Source of the DNA: Thermococci archaeon
GTDB taxonomy: Archaea; Hadarchaeota; B88-G9
NCBI GenBank assembly: GCA_003660555.1
Contig: QMUK01000058.1
Span: forward strand, 1-8,165
DNA length: 8,165 nucleotides
Direction: 5' to 3'
Shown here: positions 251-8,165 of the stretch, piece by piece
How positions within the stretch are numbered: position 1 is the first letter of the stretch
Layout of the letters: the number at the start of each line of letters is the position of its first letter
Notes under the pieces: model-generated
What the model was told of the DNA's origin: nothing
Database searches by the model: none
Seen by the model: only the letters and a program-made list of their open reading frames with translations
Program-made: the position numbers and the translations under genes

Positions 251-269
251 TTCACTTTTCTCATTCTTC
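251..269 (+). terminator. Possible pyrimidine-tract terminator between convergent genes
   Basis: This is a T/C-rich tract (TTCACTTTTCTCATTCTTC) about 50 bases after the stop of the left-edge gene, and it runs into the last codon of the oppositely oriented TOPRIM gene. Archaeal transcription often ends at T-rich tracts without a stem-loop, so this is the best candidate for terminating rightward transcription. No hairpin is visible in 201-267. The tract has no run longer than four T, so the call is weak. Confidence 0.25.
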
Positions 270-933
270 ATAGCGATTTGAGAACTCTTACTAAGCTTGA
301 GAAAGACTTACTTAGAATCTCGGCATCACTCTTTTCAATTATTTCGATCTGGGAAATTCTAAGTTCTTCTAGAATTTCCTTTGATGAACTCTTCCCTACT
401 ACATCTCTTTCATTTAATTTTCCCGTGAGAATCATAACCTCTACAGAGTGGTCCTCGATACATTTCCTCTTAGTTCTTAATTCTGGAATTCCCAATAATA
501 GGACGATTAATTTTCTTGAGCTCTCAATTTCTGTTTCGTATATTGACCTGTTTACCTTAGAGAACTTTAAGTCTAATCCCTTGGATCTCAGTGCGTTCTC
601 TAGAGACTCAATTCTGTCTTCTGGGGAGTACTCGTCCATATCAATGAGAACTATTAACTTCTTAACTCTTTTCGATATTTTAGAGAGAGATATGATGTAT
701 CCGACTATCTCTGTGAGGTTATTAACTCCCTCGCAGTCAGTAATTCCAATGCCTTTGAGATCTACTCCGATTTTCTTAGATAGAACTTTGACTAACTCTG
801 AATCGCTTTTCCCCTCACAAATTAGTATGCTGTTGAACTTTAGAGCTTTCTTACAGAATTCAAAGAAGCTCTCTCTCATTGGTTTGAGTTGAATCAAATG
901 AAACACCTCAGAAGGCATATAGAAATCTGACAT
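268..933 (-). CDS. Stand-alone TOPRIM-domain protein (DUF3226/DUF4435-like), putative nuclease effector
   Basis: A 221-residue protein read as a TOPRIM (topoisomerase-primase fold) protein. The first hallmark is ILICEGKSD, with the catalytic-type glutamate at E40 after a hydrophobic strand. The second is LIVLIDMDE, with the D98-x-D100 metal-binding pair. A later acidic element, CIEDHSVEVM (about 158-167), resembles the conserved Glu/Asp segment near the end of DUF3226-type proteins. There is no signal peptide or membrane segment, so it should act in the cytoplasm. In OLD-family nucleases and PARIS, TOPRIM domains are metal-dependent nucleases controlled by an ABC-type ATPase. This gene overlaps the upstream ATPase gene by 26 bases, which supports that pairing. 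The ATG at 931-933 is preceded by AGGA four bases away; a second ATG at residue 6 has no such sequence. It is shorter than I recall for AriB, so I place it in a broader split OLD-like group. The target, DNA or tRNA, cannot be inferred. Confidence 0.75.
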   Translation of the reverse strand: MSDFYMPSEVFHLIQLKPMRESFFEFCKKALKFNSILICEGKSDSELVKVLSKKIGVDLKGIGITDCEGVNNLTEIVGYIISLSKISKRVKKLIVLIDMDEYSPEDRIESLENALRSKGLDLKFSKVNRSIYETEIESSRKLIVLLLGIPELRTKRKCIEDHSVEVMILTGKLNERDVVGKSSSKEILEELRISQIEIIEKSDAEILSKSFSSLVRVLKSL

Positions 934-1993
934 CTATTCCTATTTTCTCGAGATTTTCTAGGTCCTCTCCAGACAATTTCCTTGCACTGACAACTCCTTT
1001 GTTGTCTCTCTCTAAGAAGAACATAGATAGCTCGATTTCACTCTCTGAACAGATCTTGGAGACTATCTTCGATAGCTCGAGACTATGTGTAGTTATTAGT
1101 ATCTGATTATTCCTCTTTTTGGCAGACTTCAAAATCAAGTCCATGGTTTTGTAAAGTCCGAGCGGATGTTGATGACTTTCTGGCTCTTCTAATAGGAGAG
1201 CACTCCTCTCGCTTAATAAGGAAATCGAAGTCATCAGGAAGGACATTCTAGAACCGTCTCCCAAGTCATCTAGCCTAACACTACTTCTGGGGAGCCCAAC
1301 CATCAGAACGTTCTTATCTCCGAATGGAACATACGTTATGTTCTCTGCGTTTAATCCATATCCATCTCTGAGCAGGGATACTATTTCCTTATCTATTCTC
1401 CTCTTGAACACTTCTTCCCATATTCTCCTTTCCACCTCCTCAAACCTATGTAGCAGGCCAGAGTCGATAATTGTTATTCCTTTCATGTACTTGAGAAGGT
1501 CGCTCATTTCTCTTTTTTTAATTTTTAAGAGGCTCGAAGCACTATCTAAGGACGTTGTTTCAGAGCTACTTCCATCTGAGACATAGCTCCTTTTGTGAAT
1601 AGCACACCAGTATTTGTATCCGTACTTTTCTTCGTTTAAGATTACTAGTGGATGCTCGTGAATATCTGAAAGCTCTATCTCGATGTGAAAGTTATTGAAT
1701 CCAAGTTTGAATTGAATAGGTTTACTCTTCTCGTAGTTATACCAAAGTATTTCTGTGTCTCTTTTTCCTCCTTTTAAGCCTCTTTCGCACCTTCTGTTCA
1801 AGAGAACTTCCATTTTGTCCTTCCTATTTATTGAATCGAACTCAGAGAATCCGTAGGAAATTAGATATATAGACTCCAATATGGAAGACTTTCCAGAATT
1901 GTTCTTTCCGAGAAATAAATTTACTTTTCTAAGTCCAGATATTTTCATCTTTTTTATACCCTTGAAGTTCCTTATTTCAATTGAATTAATCAT
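908..1993 (-). CDS. OLD-like/AAA15-type ABC ATPase, partner of the TOPRIM protein
   Basis: A 361-residue ATPase with the RecF/SMC/OLD layout. Walker A is GKNNSGKSS at 29-37, following the typical N-terminal strand-turn-strand of this group ([15 protein letters not shown]). A signature-like segment ([11 protein letters not shown], about 243-253) precedes Walker B at [13 protein letters not shown] (265-277), whose second glutamate is the likely catalytic base. An H-loop follows at ILITTHS (298-304). The middle region, about 60-230, is the variable insertion seen in OLD and AriA-type proteins. There is no C-terminal TOPRIM domain; that activity sits in the next gene, so this is the split form of the OLD architecture. 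In OLD/Gabija/PARIS systems the ATPase assembles as an oligomer and gates the nuclease. The start ATG overlaps the EVE stop codon (ATGA at 1990-1993), with a GGGG element eight bases upstream, which predicts translational coupling. The ATPase call is secure; the defence role is inferred from neighbours. Confidence 0.88.
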
Positions 1994-2442
1994 ATTCCAG
2001 TCCCCTTTTCCATTATGAGGAGGAAATCCTCCTCTGGTATTTCCCTCATAGCTTTACCCATTAGGTGACCAGCCCACTTACTCTTGTTTCTTATGAATTT
2101 GAGCCTCGGAATCAATGGTTTAAAGTAAACTGGCTCATCGAAAACTCTTATTTCCCTTAGTTTTATCCTAAATGGGAATATTTCGTTTCCTAATTTAGGG
2201 GGAGACTTGAATATCCTAGTGTTATCCTTGAAGACTTCCTTGGTCACTTCGTATGCTCCAGTTACCCTTGATTCCTTAATTTCCTCTCCTATCTTCTCCT
2301 GTATTAGGTATATTAGGCACTTGTCTCCCTTTTTAACCCTTTTTATTGTGTTCTCGTGTCTCTTTGGAACTCCCCAAATTCTCTTATTCTTTATTACTCT
2401 CCAGTTCTCCTCGTTGGTTATGCATAACCAATACTTGGTCAA
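1990..2442 (-). CDS. EVE-domain protein (UPF0310 family), possible modified-base reader
   Basis: A 150-residue protein that is almost entirely one EVE domain, a PUA-like fold. The N-terminus [15 protein letters not shown] with W6 and W14, then RIWGVPKR with W23, is typical of UPF0310 proteins. So is the C-terminal half: [13 protein letters not shown] (111-123) followed by [10 protein letters not shown] (131-140). Conserved aromatic residues line the binding pocket in this fold. Some family members bind modified cytosines or other modified bases, and relatives occur in modification-dependent restriction. The start is forced to be TTG: an in-frame TAA lies 18 bases upstream (2461-2463), no ATG or GTG occurs between, and the domain begins at residue 3. 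GGGGA sits five bases upstream. It is the first gene of the minus-strand operon and overlaps the ATPase gene by four bases. A general RNA-binding or housekeeping role is possible, since UPF0310 proteins also occur outside defence loci. Confidence 0.88.
2414..2431. promoter_or_regulatory. Perfect 18-bp palindrome at the start of the EVE gene
   Basis: TTGGTTATGCATAACCAA equals its own reverse complement, with no mismatch over 18 bp. It spans codons 4 to 10 of the EVE gene, beginning 9 bases after the first base of the TTG start. On DNA it could be the operator of a dimeric repressor just downstream of transcription start. On RNA it could fold into a 7-bp stem with a UGCA loop next to the start codon. 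The encoded residues (YWLCITN) are conserved in the family, so part of the symmetry may be forced by the protein. Confidence 0.4.
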
Positions 2443-2464
2443 GTTCTTCCCCAGGCTTGATTAG

Positions 2465-2496
2465 CCATGAGAATTTATCCTTTTCTCTTCTCATGG
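2465..2496. repeat. 9-bp inverted repeat around the EVE operon promoter, candidate operator
   Basis: CCATGAGAA at 2465-2473 is matched exactly by its reverse complement TTCTCATGG at 2488-2496, with 14 bp between. Arm centres are 23 bp apart, about two helical turns, which suits a dimeric DNA-binding protein. The spacer contains most of the TATA/BRE-like element of the leftward promoter, so a bound protein would block TBP/TFB. It is also within 140 bp of the rightward helicase start, so it could control both operons. No binding protein is encoded in the window. Confidence 0.45.
2472..2486 (-). promoter_or_regulatory. Candidate BRE/TATA promoter of the EVE-ATPase-TOPRIM operon
   Basis: On the minus strand this reads AGAAAAGGATAAATT: a purine-rich BRE-like half followed by an AT-rich box (ATAAATT at 2472-2478). 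It lies about 30-36 bases upstream of the forced TTG start. Archaeal transcription normally begins some 26 bases past the TATA centre, which would give a leader of only about 6-8 bases. That is compatible with the near-leaderless first genes common in archaea. Confidence 0.4.
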
Positions 2497-2544
2497 AATG
2501 GACTGAGATACGAGTGAGTGAAGCTTACCAATTAACCGAACCAA

Positions 2545-2560
2545 AAAGTAGAAATAACCA
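2545..2560 (+). promoter_or_regulatory. Weak candidate promoter of the helicase-methyltransferase operon
   Basis: AAAGTAGAAATAACC is the best BRE/TATA-like stretch between the EVE and helicase genes on the plus strand. It would place transcription start near 2580-2585, leaving a leader of about 20 bases that contains the Shine-Dalgarno sequence. The box is not a good consensus. An alternative AATTAACC near 2530-2537 would give a longer leader. Confidence 0.27.
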
Positions 2561-2593
2561 GTTACTCTTACCCTAAACCCAAAAACCCCTAGA

Positions 2594-2599
2594 GGAGAG
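2594..2599 (+). promoter_or_regulatory. Shine-Dalgarno sequence of the helicase gene
   Basis: GGAGAG lies just upstream of the ATG at 2604-2606, with six bases between GGAG and the start. This supports that ATG; the protein's N-terminal GELVKARSLTWRV segment follows at once. Confidence 0.6.
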
Positions 2600-2603
2600 A
2601 GAC

Positions 2604-5489
2604 ATGGGGAAGATCCCAGAACCTGGAGAACTAGTTAAGGCCAGGAGTCTAACGTGGAGAGTAGAGGATGTGAGGGATTTAGGAACCGGATACGAAGTCA
2701 AACTACTCGGTGAGGAGGAAACGAATAAAGGGATTAGGATCTCGGTCCTAACTCAGTTAGAGGAATTGGAACCGATCTCAAGGGAACCAGAGGAATTAGG
2801 AATACCAGTAAGCCCAGAACATTGGAAGTTCTATTTAGATTCTATCGGTTTCTCAATGGCTCACTCAAACGAGTTCCTACTCTCTCTTCTGAATAGCAGA
2901 ATAGAATTGGAGGAATATCAGCTCCTACCAATAGTGAAGATGAGAGAGATCTCTAGACCTAGATTACTCATAGCTGACGACGTGGGACTTGGCAAGACAA
3001 TAGAAGCAGGATTAATCACGATGGAGCTTGCCTCTAGGGGAAGAGCCAATAGGATCCTAATAGTCACTCCAGCATCCCTCCAGGAACAATGGAGAGACGA
3101 GATGAAGGAAAAATTCAACCTAGATTTCAAAATATTCGATAGTTCAACTCTAAAGAAAATAGAAAGAGAAATTAGAGCGGATTTAAATCCATGGGAAGTC
3201 TACGACAAAGTGATAACCTCAATAGACTACGTTAAGAGAGAAGAAGTTCTTAAAAAACTTGAAAGGGCTAAGTGGGATTTGGTAATAATAGACGAGGCAC
3301 ATTATCTCTCCTACGTAAACAAAAAAACTGATAGAGCTAGATTCGGAGAGAAAATAGCGAAGAGATGCGAGGCCCTTCTTTTGCTGACAGCAACGCCTCA
3401 CACAGGCAAGCCAGAGAGTTTCAAGAGAATACTCAAACTATTGGACGAGAGACTCGTGAGAGGTAGGGGAGAAGAACTTTCACCAGAGTATAGGAAGCAC
3501 GTAGTTAGAAGACTAAAGGGAGAGATAAAAGACAAGTCTGGGAGGAAGAAGTTCGAGATCCCAGAAGTAGTGCCAATAGGACTCAAATTCACTGAGAAAG
3601 AGAAGAAAGTGTACGAAAAACTCAAGGAGTATACAGATTCCCAGTATAAGGTTGCTATTAGGACTAAAGGGGCCCAATCTGTTGCCTTCGCCATGATAGT
3701 CCTTAGGAAGAGACTTTTAAGCAGTTTCCATTCTTTGAAAGAGTCTCTCAAGAAGAGAATAGATACTCTAGAGACAGAGAGTTACGACATGGACACCTCA
3801 CATAGGATGAGCTACTTAGAAGGAAATACTCTAACCGAGAAACAAATAGAGAGGTTTGAGAAGGATTTGCTAAGGACAAGTCTCGCTAGAACTGAGGAGG
3901 AATTAGAAAAGGAGAGGGAAACCTTAGGAGAGATACTCCGACTAGTGGAGGAAGTCCTCGAAGAAGGCGACTCGAAGTCCAAAGAGATACTCCGCTTAGT
4001 AAATGAAATAACCTCCAGGGGAGAAAAAGTAATAGTTTTCACAGAGTACATAGATACTCAGAAGTACCTTTCGAAATATCTCTCTGAAAATGGATTTCAT
4101 GGAAAAATAGCCATCCTAAACGGGAAGATGACTCAAAAAGAAAGGAGAGAGCAGGACGAATTCTTCAACAGCCAAGAGTGTAGTGTATTAATAGCTACAG
4201 ATGCCGTCAGCGAAGGGCTGAACTTCCAAAAGAATTGCTCCGTCTTGATACATAACGAGTTACCTTGGAATCCAAATAGACTAGAGCAAAGGAATGGAAG
4301 AGTTGATAGATGGGGTCAGAAGAAGAGAGTGAAGATATTCAACCTCTACTACGAAGATTCCTATGAACAGGAAGTCCTTTCGCTCCTAGTAGAGAAATTG
4401 GAGAGAATCAGATCAGACCTAGGATCTGTGACAGATGTACTTGGGCTCTTGGATCAAGAGAAGATAAGAGATAGCATAATGTCCATAGAAACTGAGGAAG
4501 ACCTCAGGAAAACCGAGAAACTAATGGAAGAGATGGTAGAAGAAGCACTCAAGATATATAACAGGGAAATAAGGGAGAAAGCACTTTTCAGGGATGTTAG
4601 CGTAGATTCTGAGTTGAGTTCAAGACAATTGAATAGAAATAAGAGCCTTCCTGGGTTCGAAGATCTGGAAGGTTTGGTTAGACACATGATTGAAATCAGA
4701 GGAGGAAGTTTTCAGGAGGTCTCTCCCAGAATATTCAAGATAGTTGTTCCAAAGTCATTACAGAGGAGAGGAGTAAAAGAGGAATATGAAAAGACTACTT
4801 TTAGCAGAGAAGTTGCTGTTTCCAACAGAGAAGTAGAGTTTCTCACCCCAATGCACCCCTTAGTTAGGGCAATCCTCTCGGAATATAGGAAGTCTGCCAT
4901 GGAGGGAACTGAGGACTATTCATTTACATACAAGTTCTTTGGTAGAGAGGAAGGATTATTGTTCGTTTTCTTGGCGAAGTTCCAGAACGGATTGGGGAGA
5001 TTAGTAGAAGAGAGACTAATACCAGTTTTCTTGGACTCGAAGTTAAGGCCTTATTCTGGAGAAAGGGAGGAAGAGATGCTACTATCCATAGGATCTCACG
5101 GAAGTATATCCAGAAATGAGATAGAGAGGGGAAAGGAATTTTGGAGGAAATCAGTAGAGATAGCAAGGGAATTCGCTAGAGAAAGAGCTAATGAAATTTC
5201 CGAGGAGATAAGGAGTTTCATAGAGAGGATCGTGGATTCCGAGAAAAGAGATTTAGATGAGTTCCTAAAGGAGGAGAAAAGCAGATTAGAGGGAGAAATA
5301 GAGAAAATAAGGAAGAAATATGGAGAAGACGAGAGAGTAGTAAGGATGATGGTCGGAAAGATAGAAAACACCATTTACTCCCTTGAGAAATCCGTTAAAG
5401 AGAGAAAACAGAAACTAGAGAAGTCCTTGGAGATAAGACCACAGAGGGTGGAATTGATTGCATCTGCTCTGATATTTCCGGAGGTGTAG
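2604..5489 (+). CDS. drmD: SNF2/RapA-like helicase, DrmD-like (candidate class 1 DISARM component)
   Basis: A complete 961-residue superfamily 2 ATPase of the SNF2/RapA branch, which should move along duplex DNA. The N-terminal module carries GELVKARSLTWRV (8-20), a pattern I associate with DrmD and related defence helicases. Motif I is ADDVGLGKT (124-132), motif II DEAH (230-233) and motif III LLTATPHTGK (260-269). The second RecA lobe has an EYIDTQKYL strand (481-489), motif V ATDAVSEGLNFQ (531-542) and motif VI QRNGRVDRWGQ (562-572) with the arginine fingers. After it comes a family C-terminal region with LTPMHPLVRAIL (747-758), then a charged coiled-coil-like segment (about 850-945). No nuclease or methylase motifs are visible. 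The next gene is an adenine methyltransferase six bases away, matching drmD-drmMI order. A SNF2 helicase from a BREX variant or an orphan helicase-methylase pair remains possible. The helicase call is near certain; the DrmD name is moderate. Confidence 0.85.
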   Translation: MGKIPEPGELVKARSLTWRVEDVRDLGTGYEVKLLGEEETNKGIRISVLTQLEELEPISREPEELGIPVSPEHWKFYLDSIGFSMAHSNEFLLSLLNSRIELEEYQLLPIVKMREISRPRLLIADDVGLGKTIEAGLITMELASRGRANRILIVTPASLQEQWRDEMKEKFNLDFKIFDSSTLKKIEREIRADLNPWEVYDKVITSIDYVKREEVLKKLERAKWDLVIIDEAHYLSYVNKKTDRARFGEKIAKRCEALLLLTATPHTGKPESFKRILKLLDERLVRGRGEELSPEYRKHVVRRLKGEIKDKSGRKKFEIPEVVPIGLKFTEKEKKVYEKLKEYTDSQYKVAIRTKGAQSVAFAMIVLRKRLLSSFHSLKESLKKRIDTLETESYDMDTSHRMSYLEGNTLTEKQIERFEKDLLRTSLARTEEELEKERETLGEILRLVEEVLEEGDSKSKEILRLVNEITSRGEKVIVFTEYIDTQKYLSKYLSENGFHGKIAILNGKMTQKERREQDEFFNSQECSVLIATDAVSEGLNFQKNCSVLIHNELPWNPNRLEQRNGRVDRWGQKKRVKIFNLYYEDSYEQEVLSLLVEKLERIRSDLGSVTDVLGLLDQEKIRDSIMSIETEEDLRKTEKLMEEMVEEALKIYNREIREKALFRDVSVDSELSSRQLNRNKSLPGFEDLEGLVRHMIEIRGGSFQEVSPRIFKIVVPKSLQRRGVKEEYEKTTFSREVAVSNREVEFLTPMHPLVRAILSEYRKSAMEGTEDYSFTYKFFGREEGLLFVFLAKFQNGLGRLVEERLIPVFLDSKLRPYSGEREEEMLLSIGSHGSISRNEIERGKEFWRKSVEIAREFARERANEISEEIRSFIERIVDSEKRDLDEFLKEEKSRLEGEIEKIRKKYGEDERVVRMMVGKIENTIYSLEKSVKERKQKLEKSLEIRPQRVELIASALIFPEV
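3929..3994 (+). repeat. 12-bp direct repeat inside the helicase gene
   Basis: AGAGATACTCCG occurs at 3929-3940 and again at 3983-3994, 54 bp apart and in the same frame, so both copies encode EILRLV (residues 443-448 and 461-466). They lie in a helical, heptad-like linker just before the second RecA lobe. Both copies use a CGN arginine codon, which is rare in this gene. It could be an old 18-codon duplication or convergence of helical sequence. Confidence 0.4.
5480..5486 (+). promoter_or_regulatory. Strong Shine-Dalgarno sequence of the methyltransferase gene
   Basis: GGAGGTG matches the anti-Shine-Dalgarno core of 16S rRNA and ends nine bases before the ATG at 5496. It lies in the last codons of the helicase gene and is the strongest ribosome binding site in the window. 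It fixes the methyltransferase start and suggests coupled translation in one operon. Confidence 0.75.
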
Positions 5490-5495
5490 TTAGAG

Positions 5496-8165
5496 ATGCC
5501 TAAACATTACGAGAATCTCAAAACTCAGAATCCCCTAATTCCTGTATACTTCTTGGAGAGGATGTTCGAGGATAGAAGGCTTAAGAGAGAACTAGGAGAT
5601 GAAAGGGAATTTAGGGAGTGGTATCCAAGCATACTTAGACTATACAAGAGAAGAAGATACATGTTGGGCTCAGACGTAGACAAGGCCCAACTAAGAAAGA
5701 AGTGGATAATGCCGATCCTTAACTACTTGGGATTCTCCCCAGAAGCCGTCACTAGGATAGAAGGAGAGAAAAGAGAATATGTGATCTCCGGAATAGAATA
5801 TCACGAGATGAGACCGTTAGTACTATTTAAGTTCCTAGATTTCGCCAAGAATCCAGAGATATCTGATTGGAGGGGAAGACTAAGTCCTCAGAAAGAGATT
5901 CAGTTAGCTCTTTATTATTCAGATGCTAAATACGGAATAATAACCAATGGAAGGTCTTTCAGACTAATAGGGAGTGATCCAATAACTCAGGGGTATATAG
6001 AAGTGGATTTGATCTCATCCCTAGAGACGGAGGACGAGGACTCCCTCTTCCTCTTCTGGAACCTCTTCAGAAAGAACTCCTTCGTTCCTAGGGAAGACGG
6101 AAGATGCCTCCTCGATAGACTAATAGAAGAAGGGAGGAAGAACTCGATAGAAATGGGAGAAGGGCTAAGGGAAACAATAGTTAAGACTATGGAGAAGCTG
6201 ATGAGAGGCTTGATTAGAGAAAACGAGTGGTTGGCAAAAGAGAACCTTTACCGAGTATACGAGGAATGCCTAGTTTTTTTGTACAGAATCCTCTTTATCT
6301 TATATGCCGAAAGCACCGAGTTGCTTCCTGTAAGCAATCCCCTGTATAGGTCCTACAGCATGGAGTTCCTCAAGGAATTAGTCACAGATCCTAGGAGGGA
6401 ATTCGGAAAGGGAGAGTACTTCCTTTGGAGTACATTGAAGTCTCTCTTTAAGTTGATAAACGAGGGATTGGAGACAAGTGGCTTGGAAGTACCTGCATAT
6501 AACGGAGGATTGTTCTCCGAGAGCAAGACTCCCTTGCTGAATAAATGTAAGCTGAGTGATCACTCCCTTTGTGAGGTGTTAAGAGATCTATTCCTGACTC
6601 CCGAGGGAAGGGGTGGAAGGACTTTTATCTCGTACAGGGAGCTGGGAATAGACCAGTTAGGTTCCATATACGAGAACCTCTTGGAGTTGGAACCCAAGAT
6701 TGCAGACGAGGATTTGGCAGTAGTGAAGATTAAGAACGCCTACCAGATGGTTCCAAAGAGATCTGTCAAGAATGAAAGAATCATGGAAGAGATAAGGAAG
6801 GGAGAATTGTACCTCTCTTATTGGGGAGGGAGGAGAAAGAGCTCCGGGACTTACTACACCCCAAAGGAGATAACTAGGTTCTTGGTTAGGAGCGCACTGG
6901 AGCCAATTCTAGAGGGAAAGTCCTCTGATGAGATTCTAGAGGTAAAGGTACTGGACCCAGCAATGGGAAGCGGAGCCTTCTTAGTCTCTGCCTTGGAAGT
7001 AATATCCGAGAAGTACAAGGAAGCCCTCATTAGGGAAGGGAGAATATCTGAGGAGGAATTGGATGAAGAAAAAGAGGCAGAGATAAGGAGAAGAGTCTTA
7101 GAGAGGTGCATTTACGGAGTGGACTTGAATCCAATGGCAGTAGAGCTAGCCAAGGTCTCCCTGTGGCTCTCCACGATGGCTAGGGACAAGCCCTTGACCT
7201 TCTTGGATCACAAGCTGAAGTGTGGGAACAGCCTAATAGGGGCTAGCCTCAAGGATATAGCTAGGTATCCTAGGAAGAGAAGGAGAAGAGTTCCTAGAGA
7301 GGAGGAGCAAACTATTTTCATAGAGGGATTCAGCTGGGAGTCGATATCTAGAAAGTTGGAGAGACTGTCGAGATTAAGGGAGAGACTCAGCTTAGAGGAC
7401 GAGACATTGGAAGCAGTTAGAGCAAAGGAGGAGTTGTATCGAGATTTCTTAGATGGAAGAATCGACGAGGGACTGATCTACAGGAGGTTGAAGACTGCAT
7501 GCGATTTGTGGACTTATCTCTTCTTCGGCGGAGAACTAACCGATGGGGAATACTTCAGGGCACTTCATTTAATCTTGGAGGGAAGAGATCTAAATGAGGA
7601 ATTCCCTGGGCTATTAGAGAAGTTAGAAGAGGTTTCTGAGAGATACAAATTCTTCCACTGGGAACTCGAGTTCCCTGAGGTATTCGCTGGAGGAGGATTC
7701 GATGCGGTTTTCGGAAATCCACCTTGGGACATTGTGAAGCCGAATAGTGATGAGTTCTTCAGCAATTACGATCCCTATTTCAGGAGCTATAAGAAACAGA
7801 AGAAGAATAGGTTGATGAATAAGTTGATAGAAGAGAATGAGGATATAAGAAAAAGCTGGGAGGAATACGTTGATAGAATTGAGAGAGAATCTTTCTTCTT
7901 CAGGAACTCCGGACTTTATCCTCACCAGTATAAAGGAGATATTAATCTCTACAAGCTGTTTCTTGAGAGGTTCTTCTGGTTGATGAAAGAAGGAGGAAGG
8001 ATGTCGATAATAGTGCCATCAGGTCTTTACACGGACGAAGGATGTAAAGAGCTGAGGAGGATGTTTTTGGAGAATTCAAGAATCGAGTTCTTGATTGGTA
8101 TAGAGAACAGACAGGGAATCTTCCCAATACACAAAAGTTTTAAGTTCACACTACTTTCAACAAAG
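5496..8165 (+). CDS. drmMI: Eco57I/PglX-type N6-adenine DNA methyltransferase, DrmMI-like, cut by the right edge
   Basis: The frame is open from ATG 5496 to the window end: 890 residues and no stop. Residues 450-464 (SGTYYTPKEITRFLV) form motif X. VLDPAMGSGAF (485-495) is the SAM-binding motif I, and GVDLNPMAVELAKVSLWL (541-558) is the strand and helix after it. FGNPPWDIV (739-747) is catalytic motif IV of the NPPY/W type that methylates adenine N6. GDINLYKLFLERF (814-826), IIVPSGLYTDEG (838-849) and NRQGIFPIHKSFKF (871-884) are typical of the Eco57I-like family. The N-terminal 180 residues resemble the HsdR/type IIG nuclease-like domain (AKYGIITNGRSFRLIG, 144-159). However, the strand that should carry E-x-K reads PLVLFKFLDF (107-116), so cleavage looks unlikely. 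A target-recognition region is probably in the missing C-terminus; relatives often exceed 1,100 residues. It sits six bases after the helicase gene, behind a strong Shine-Dalgarno. It could instead be a BREX PglX or an inactivated type IIG enzyme. Confidence 0.88.
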   Translation, partial: MPKHYENLKTQNPLIPVYFLERMFEDRRLKRELGDEREFREWYPSILRLYKRRRYMLGSDVDKAQLRKKWIMPILNYLGFSPEAVTRIEGEKREYVISGIEYHEMRPLVLFKFLDFAKNPEISDWRGRLSPQKEIQLALYYSDAKYGIITNGRSFRLIGSDPITQGYIEVDLISSLETEDEDSLFLFWNLFRKNSFVPREDGRCLLDRLIEEGRKNSIEMGEGLRETIVKTMEKLMRGLIRENEWLAKENLYRVYEECLVFLYRILFILYAESTELLPVSNPLYRSYSMEFLKELVTDPRREFGKGEYFLWSTLKSLFKLINEGLETSGLEVPAYNGGLFSESKTPLLNKCKLSDHSLCEVLRDLFLTPEGRGGRTFISYRELGIDQLGSIYENLLELEPKIADEDLAVVKIKNAYQMVPKRSVKNERIMEEIRKGELYLSYWGGRRKSSGTYYTPKEITRFLVRSALEPILEGKSSDEILEVKVLDPAMGSGAFLVSALEVISEKYKEALIREGRISEEELDEEKEAEIRRRVLERCIYGVDLNPMAVELAKVSLWLSTMARDKPLTFLDHKLKCGNSLIGASLKDIARYPRKRRRRVPREEEQTIFIEGFSWESISRKLERLSRLRERLSLEDETLEAVRAKEELYRDFLDGRIDEGLIYRRLKTACDLWTYLFFGGELTDGEYFRALHLILEGRDLNEEFPGLLEKLEEVSERYKFFHWELEFPEVFAGGGFDAVFGNPPWDIVKPNSDEFFSNYDPYFRSYKKQKKNRLMNKLIEENEDIRKSWEEYVDRIERESFFFRNSGLYPHQYKGDINLYKLFLERFFWLMKEGGRMSIIVPSGLYTDEGCKELRRMFLENSRIEFLIGIENRQGIFPIHKSFKFTLLSTK

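Follow-up and report, generated by a model that had tools for sequence, protein, structure and literature searches.

An EVE-domain gene upstream of a conserved split OLD-type ATPase-TOPRIM pair in an archaeal contig, a candidate composite defence island

In an archaeal genome, genes for an EVE-domain protein, an ABC-type ATPase and a TOPRIM protein lie head to tail. Do they form one three-part defence system, or has the EVE gene landed upstream of a pair that is sufficient by itself?

Gene layout of the contig

The window, that is, the whole stretch of DNA analysed here, is one complete contig of 8,165 bases from a genome of 1.3 Mb in 150 contigs. The open reading frames for EVE (1990..2442), the ATPase (908..1993) and TOPRIM (268..933) are all open on the minus strand and follow one another in that order. 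Their Pfam scores were 80.7 bits for EVE (cut-off 23), 74.6 for AAA_15 (cut-off 32.1) and 45 for DUF3226 (cut-off 27), respectively. The EVE and ATPase genes overlap by 4 bases, with ATGA common to the EVE stop and the ATPase start. The ATPase and TOPRIM genes overlap by 26 bases only when the first ATG (933) of the TOPRIM frame is used; the ATG at 918 leaves an overlap of 11 bases and the GTG at 906 leaves none. A start at 918 or 906 seems just as likely as one at 933, because the relatives align from residue 11-12 and residues 1-10 were modelled with pLDDT below 50.

The sequence-only reading had described this gene order with overlaps of 4 and 26 bases, which we confirmed as 4 and up to 26 bases, and had taken the overlaps to imply fixed stoichiometry. 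The latter claim was rejected, since the TOPRIM start is uncertain and 44 of 414 close co-directional neighbours in these genomes overlap by exactly 4 bases. Being so common, such overlaps suggest co-transcription and not a specific partnership, and the EVE gene probably shares a transcript with the ATPase-TOPRIM pair.

On the other strand, divergent helicase and methyltransferase genes are present that had been absent from the earlier reading. The divergent intergenic region of 161 bases (2443..2603) between the EVE and helicase genes contains a perfect 9-bp inverted repeat (2465-2473/2488-2496), CCATGAGAA-N14-TTCTCATGG, spanning 2465-2496, which is a possible candidate operator. The plus-strand gene at 2604..5489 encodes a DrmD/BrxH-like SNF2 helicase of 961 aa, matching the PADLOC profiles DrmD (2.4e-145) and BrxHII (4.1e-134). 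Its score against DISARM_DrmD NF038317 was 526.6 bits, below the curated cut-off of 610, and DrmD was still the best PADLOC match. Next on this strand comes an Eco57I/DrmMI-like N6-adenine DNA methyltransferase gene (5496..8165; DrmMI, 1.9e-101), which is cut by the contig end. The core system, for which DISARM class 1 would call for drmA, drmB and drmC at one locus, therefore cannot be completed, and the missing remainder of the methyltransferase was found nowhere else in the assembly. A second DrmD-like helicase fragment, 858 aa long and 33% identical, lies on a different contig of this genome (L173). A general tie between EVE and DrmD-type helicases was also considered and rejected, as EVE was found within six genes in none of 13 DrmD-type loci. 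The ATPase-TOPRIM pair was likewise beside none of these 13 loci.

The ATPase-TOPRIM pair as a split OLD-type module

The ATPase (361 aa) is of the OLD/AbiL type and belongs to Pfam AAA_15. Walker A (GKNNSGKS), Walker B (EEPExHxHP) and a TTHS switch are conserved across the 21 family members aligned. The PADLOC matches were AbiLi (9.1e-38), PDC-M38A (5e-28) and AriA (2.6e-23), indicating an AbiLi/PDC-M38A/AriA-like profile type. The two AlphaFold2 models, one for each protein of the pair, had pLDDT values of 89.7 and 81.8. The ATPase model matched the heads of Rad50, SMC and PtuA with Z of about 18-20.5, and Thermus OLD with a Foldseek E value of 4e-12. In viral contigs, matches to the ATPase were weak and mostly N-terminal.

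The TOPRIM protein (221 aa with the start at 933) is a DUF3226 member with E40, D98xD100 and a conserved IEDH motif. Its model matched PH0156 with Z 13.4 (3.1 A over 175 residues) and GajA with Z 8.3 (4.0 A over 154 residues). It also matched the C-terminal regions of OLD proteins from bacteria, with Z 9.7-10.4 at 3.8-4.3 A over 157-164 residues. Solved AriA/AriB structures were absent among the fold matches listed, an absence that excludes nothing. E40 and D98 are retained in nearly all relatives, and the third acidic position is D, E or N. Catalysis is likely but not certain, because the second motif varies, reading NAE in locus L003 and DSN in locus L004.

Relatives of the ATPase were present in one Baldrarchaeota and one Bathyarchaeota genome and in Planctomycetes and Deltaproteobacteria. 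We examined the loci of 24 relatives (23, plus G861). In 18 of them a TOPRIM gene, detected by HMM or tblastn, lies directly downstream of the ATPase gene, mostly overlapping it or at most 25 bases away; two of these 18 (L003 and L004) contributed to building the HMM. Three further loci encode downstream a TOPRIM-like protein in which the TOPRIM motifs can be aligned, and in the last three a gene on the opposite strand adjoins the ATPase gene. ATPase relatives occurred in 3 of the 297 archaeal relatives sampled. In the phylum of the Bathyarchaeota genome (G029), 16 of 398 genomes had one, and in that of the Baldrarchaeota genome 3 of 227, where G697 is apparently the same as G537, with near-identical contig coordinates. 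The plasmid pDSM2661_1 of M. jannaschii carries a relative of the pair that is apparently broken (L016 7001-8733): its ATPase is split between two annotated ORFs, and a DUF3226 gene comes next.

Conservation, profiles and fold matches thus support the earlier view that the two genes resemble an OLD-type defence pair. Judged by sequence comparison and modelled folds, the pair is a real conserved split OLD module, predicted to act as an effector. Both genes match the PADLOC candidate PDC-M38 (PDC-M38A ATPase plus PDC-M38B), the ATPase almost from end to end (5e-28) and TOPRIM at 3e-07; the second-gene scores are weak, and PDC-M38 is a library candidate without a described function and with no EVE part listed. 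The best ATPase match is AbiLi of the AbiL system (residues 1-356), which 19 of the 21 family members also match, but AbiLii was not among the matches listed for the TOPRIM protein. PARIS (AriA plus AriB, class 4 OLD) is likewise a split ABC ATPase and TOPRIM pair; its AriB, however, is of the DUF4435 type. Pfam found no DUF4435 in the window TOPRIM at an E value of 0.1, and AriB was absent from the PADLOC listing. With its DUF3226 TOPRIM, the pair is therefore no PARIS system, strictly speaking. Similarity to Gabija and class 1 OLD is seen in the TOPRIM fold matches, whereas ATPase and TOPRIM are separate genes here and fused in GajA, and no GajB (UvrD-like helicase) is encoded in the 8165-base contig.

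One recent phylogeny reported class 4 OLD to be restricted to bacteria (PMC12796447), whereas the type of pair in the window occurs in both archaea and bacteria. The counts above place a split OLD-type pair in many archaea, across the phyla of both the Bathyarchaeota and the Baldrarchaeota genomes, in contrast to a split arrangement described as bacterial only for class 4.

The EVE protein and its neighbours elsewhere

The EVE protein (150 aa, TTG start) belongs to the archaeal PRK00809/UPF0310 subfamily (NF002008, 201.6 bits against a cut-off of 139; PF01878, 80.7 bits). It shares 60% identity with MJECL36 (structure 2P5D; E 7.6e-57), and W23, F78 and F89 align with the MJECL36 cage, so that all three aromatics are kept. 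With this identity and the retained cage it looks like an intact modified-base-binding fold, which supports that part of the earlier reading. MJECL36 has a YTH-like cage, and its binding of m6A was not detectable (PMC6112328). In VcaM4I, an EVE domain flips and binds the base and gates the nuclease (PMC7897488); by analogy, flipping and binding of a modified base are probable for the EVE of the window too.

A housekeeping EVE copy elsewhere in the same genome would have weakened the proposed link; EVE is instead single-copy in the assembly. A housekeeping role for EVE itself was ruled out by this single copy together with its patchy occurrence in its phylum, where full-length EVE was found in 2 of 28 genomes (that of the window included), plus a remnant in G027. 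The other full-length EVE and the remnant each adjoin an N6-methyltransferase. Among archaeal relatives EVE was present in 30 of 297; no EVE relatives were found in viral contigs, and M. jannaschii and T. barophilus provided the only plasmid relatives.

The sequence-only reading had placed EVE as a fixed third component of the ATPase-TOPRIM machinery and had named lack of adjacency in other genomes as the outcome that would refute it. EVE adjoined the pair in none of the 24 other loci, and since it is beside the pair in no other genome checked, a three-part system is unlikely. In the 398 genomes of the G029 phylum, EVE occurred in 20, the pair in 16 and both in one, on different contigs; this single co-occurrence is about what chance would give. 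All three pair-bearing genomes in the sample of 297 also have EVE.

The neighbours of EVE relatives varied. Of 38 EVE loci, 17 encode a protein of at least 250 aa with the motif [NDS]PP[WYF] no more than 6 kb away, against 0 of 23 ATPase loci (Fisher p 7e-5 by loci and 0.008 by genes). This proximity to methyltransferase-like genes is only indicative, because the motif also fits some non-DNA methyltransferases, several loci come from related genomes and the ATPase flanks were shorter. EVE directly adjoins a methyltransferase gene in L151, L137 and T. barophilus pTBMP1, and in L151 it overlaps a type IIG-like methyltransferase gene by 4 bases, as it overlaps the ATPase gene in the window. Standalone archaeal EVE genes beside type I RM and MTase-DUF499-SNF2 loci were noted by Bell et al. 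2020 (PMC7641849). What the window shares with those loci is a standalone EVE gene next to genes for an SNF2 helicase and an N6-methyltransferase. It differs from them in that the helicase and methyltransferase genes are divergent and DrmD/DrmMI-like, no DUF499 is in view and EVE lies in an ATPase-TOPRIM operon. A run that resembles the DUF499-centred loci of Bell et al. occurs in G528 (L119 683-8019), with a DUF499 ATPase, an interrupted SNF2 helicase, a NOV_C protein and EVE co-directional.

EVE and ABC ATPases do meet elsewhere, as two arrangements indicate. On M. jannaschii pDSM2661_1 (L017 10004-12717), EVE is followed 386 bases downstream by a fused OLD ATPase-TOPRIM gene on the same strand. 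In G622 (L124 7533-15073), an operon-like run consists of genes for an IIG/DrmMI-like methyltransferase, a MAD3-like AAA_15 ATPase, a protein of 633 aa whose end is weakly nuclease-like, and EVE. An EVE-OLD arrangement in G488 (L138) was left out of the count, being convergent and with stops in the EVE frame.

Functional partners of EVE and of the pair

With moderate confidence, we favour a composite archaeal defence island in which a self-sufficient split-OLD pair is joined by an accessory EVE from methylation systems, whose likelier partner is the helicase and N6-methyltransferase. The pair would act as an AbiL/PDC-M38/PARIS-like effector. As in OLD, Gabija and PARIS (PMC12796447, PMC10568477, PMC12839542), a dimer of the ABC ATPase would hold the TOPRIM nuclease inactive; by the same analogy, upon sensing of a virus the ATPase would release or activate TOPRIM, which would then cut nucleic acid. 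EVE may be an accessory reader of modified bases, its gene having come to lie in front of the pair and probably sharing the pair's transcript. Comparative evidence makes EVE look like an add-on recruited from methylation systems and not like a subunit, and because its lineage moves among methylation-based systems, the divergent helicase and N6-methyltransferase would be its likelier functional partner. Several observations count against such an island: EVE overlaps the ATPase gene, with the helicase and methyltransferase on the opposite strand, none of the 13 DrmD-type loci has EVE, EVE and ATPases meet in M. jannaschii and G622, and EVE is present in all three pair genomes of the archaeal sample. 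If correct, the island would exemplify the modular assembly of EVE readers, methylation systems and OLD effectors in archaeal defence islands.

The main rival, which we regard as possible though rather doubtful, is that the pair guards the helicase-methyltransferase core. The helicase, N6-methyltransferase and EVE would then form the restriction core of a single composite system, and the pair would be its reserve effector, coming into play once the core is blocked, in the way that PARIS responds to Ocr. The divergent promoter region with its 9-bp dyad and the tendency of EVE relatives to sit near methyltransferase-like genes are consistent with this, as is the finding that TOPRIM-linked OLD ATPases recur as back-up effectors at loci of BREX and related systems (PMC12839542). 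Neither a methyltransferase-like gene within 6 kb of the other pairs (0 of 23) nor a pair beside DrmD-type loci (0 of 13) was seen, however, and the core ends with the contig inside the methyltransferase.

We consider unlikely a three-part system in which EVE, on binding the modified (or unmodified) DNA of an invader, would allow the ATPase to switch on the TOPRIM nuclease. The probable common transcript with its ATGA overlap, the sole EVE copy in the genome, the M. jannaschii EVE near a fused OLD nuclease and the gating of the VcaM4I nuclease by its EVE domain (PMC7897488) all speak for it. Against it, the pair is complete without EVE and stands without it in all 24 other loci, 4-base overlaps are common and recur with the unrelated methyltransferase gene of L151, and MJECL36 shows no detectable m6A binding (PMC6112328). 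A related reading, which we hold to be quite unlikely, takes EVE as a modification-sensing subunit that gates the split-OLD TOPRIM nuclease, giving type IV-like restriction by recruitment of EVE to an AbiL/PARIS-like pair, with the M. jannaschii EVE and fused-OLD neighbourhood as a parallel. If EVE does gate the nuclease, base-modification sensing would be tied directly to OLD-type effectors.

A function outside defence is very improbable. The pair would then act in the cell cycle or in DNA processing, like the Sulfolobales protein Cran1, an archaeal OLD ATPase-nickase reported to be essential and apparently not antiviral (PMC12796447), and EVE would bind RNA. Against this stand the patchy occurrence of the pair (3 of 297 archaeal genomes) and of EVE (30 of those 297, and 2 of 28 in its own phylum), the relative of the pair on a plasmid and the defence-type genes that adjoin the window pair.
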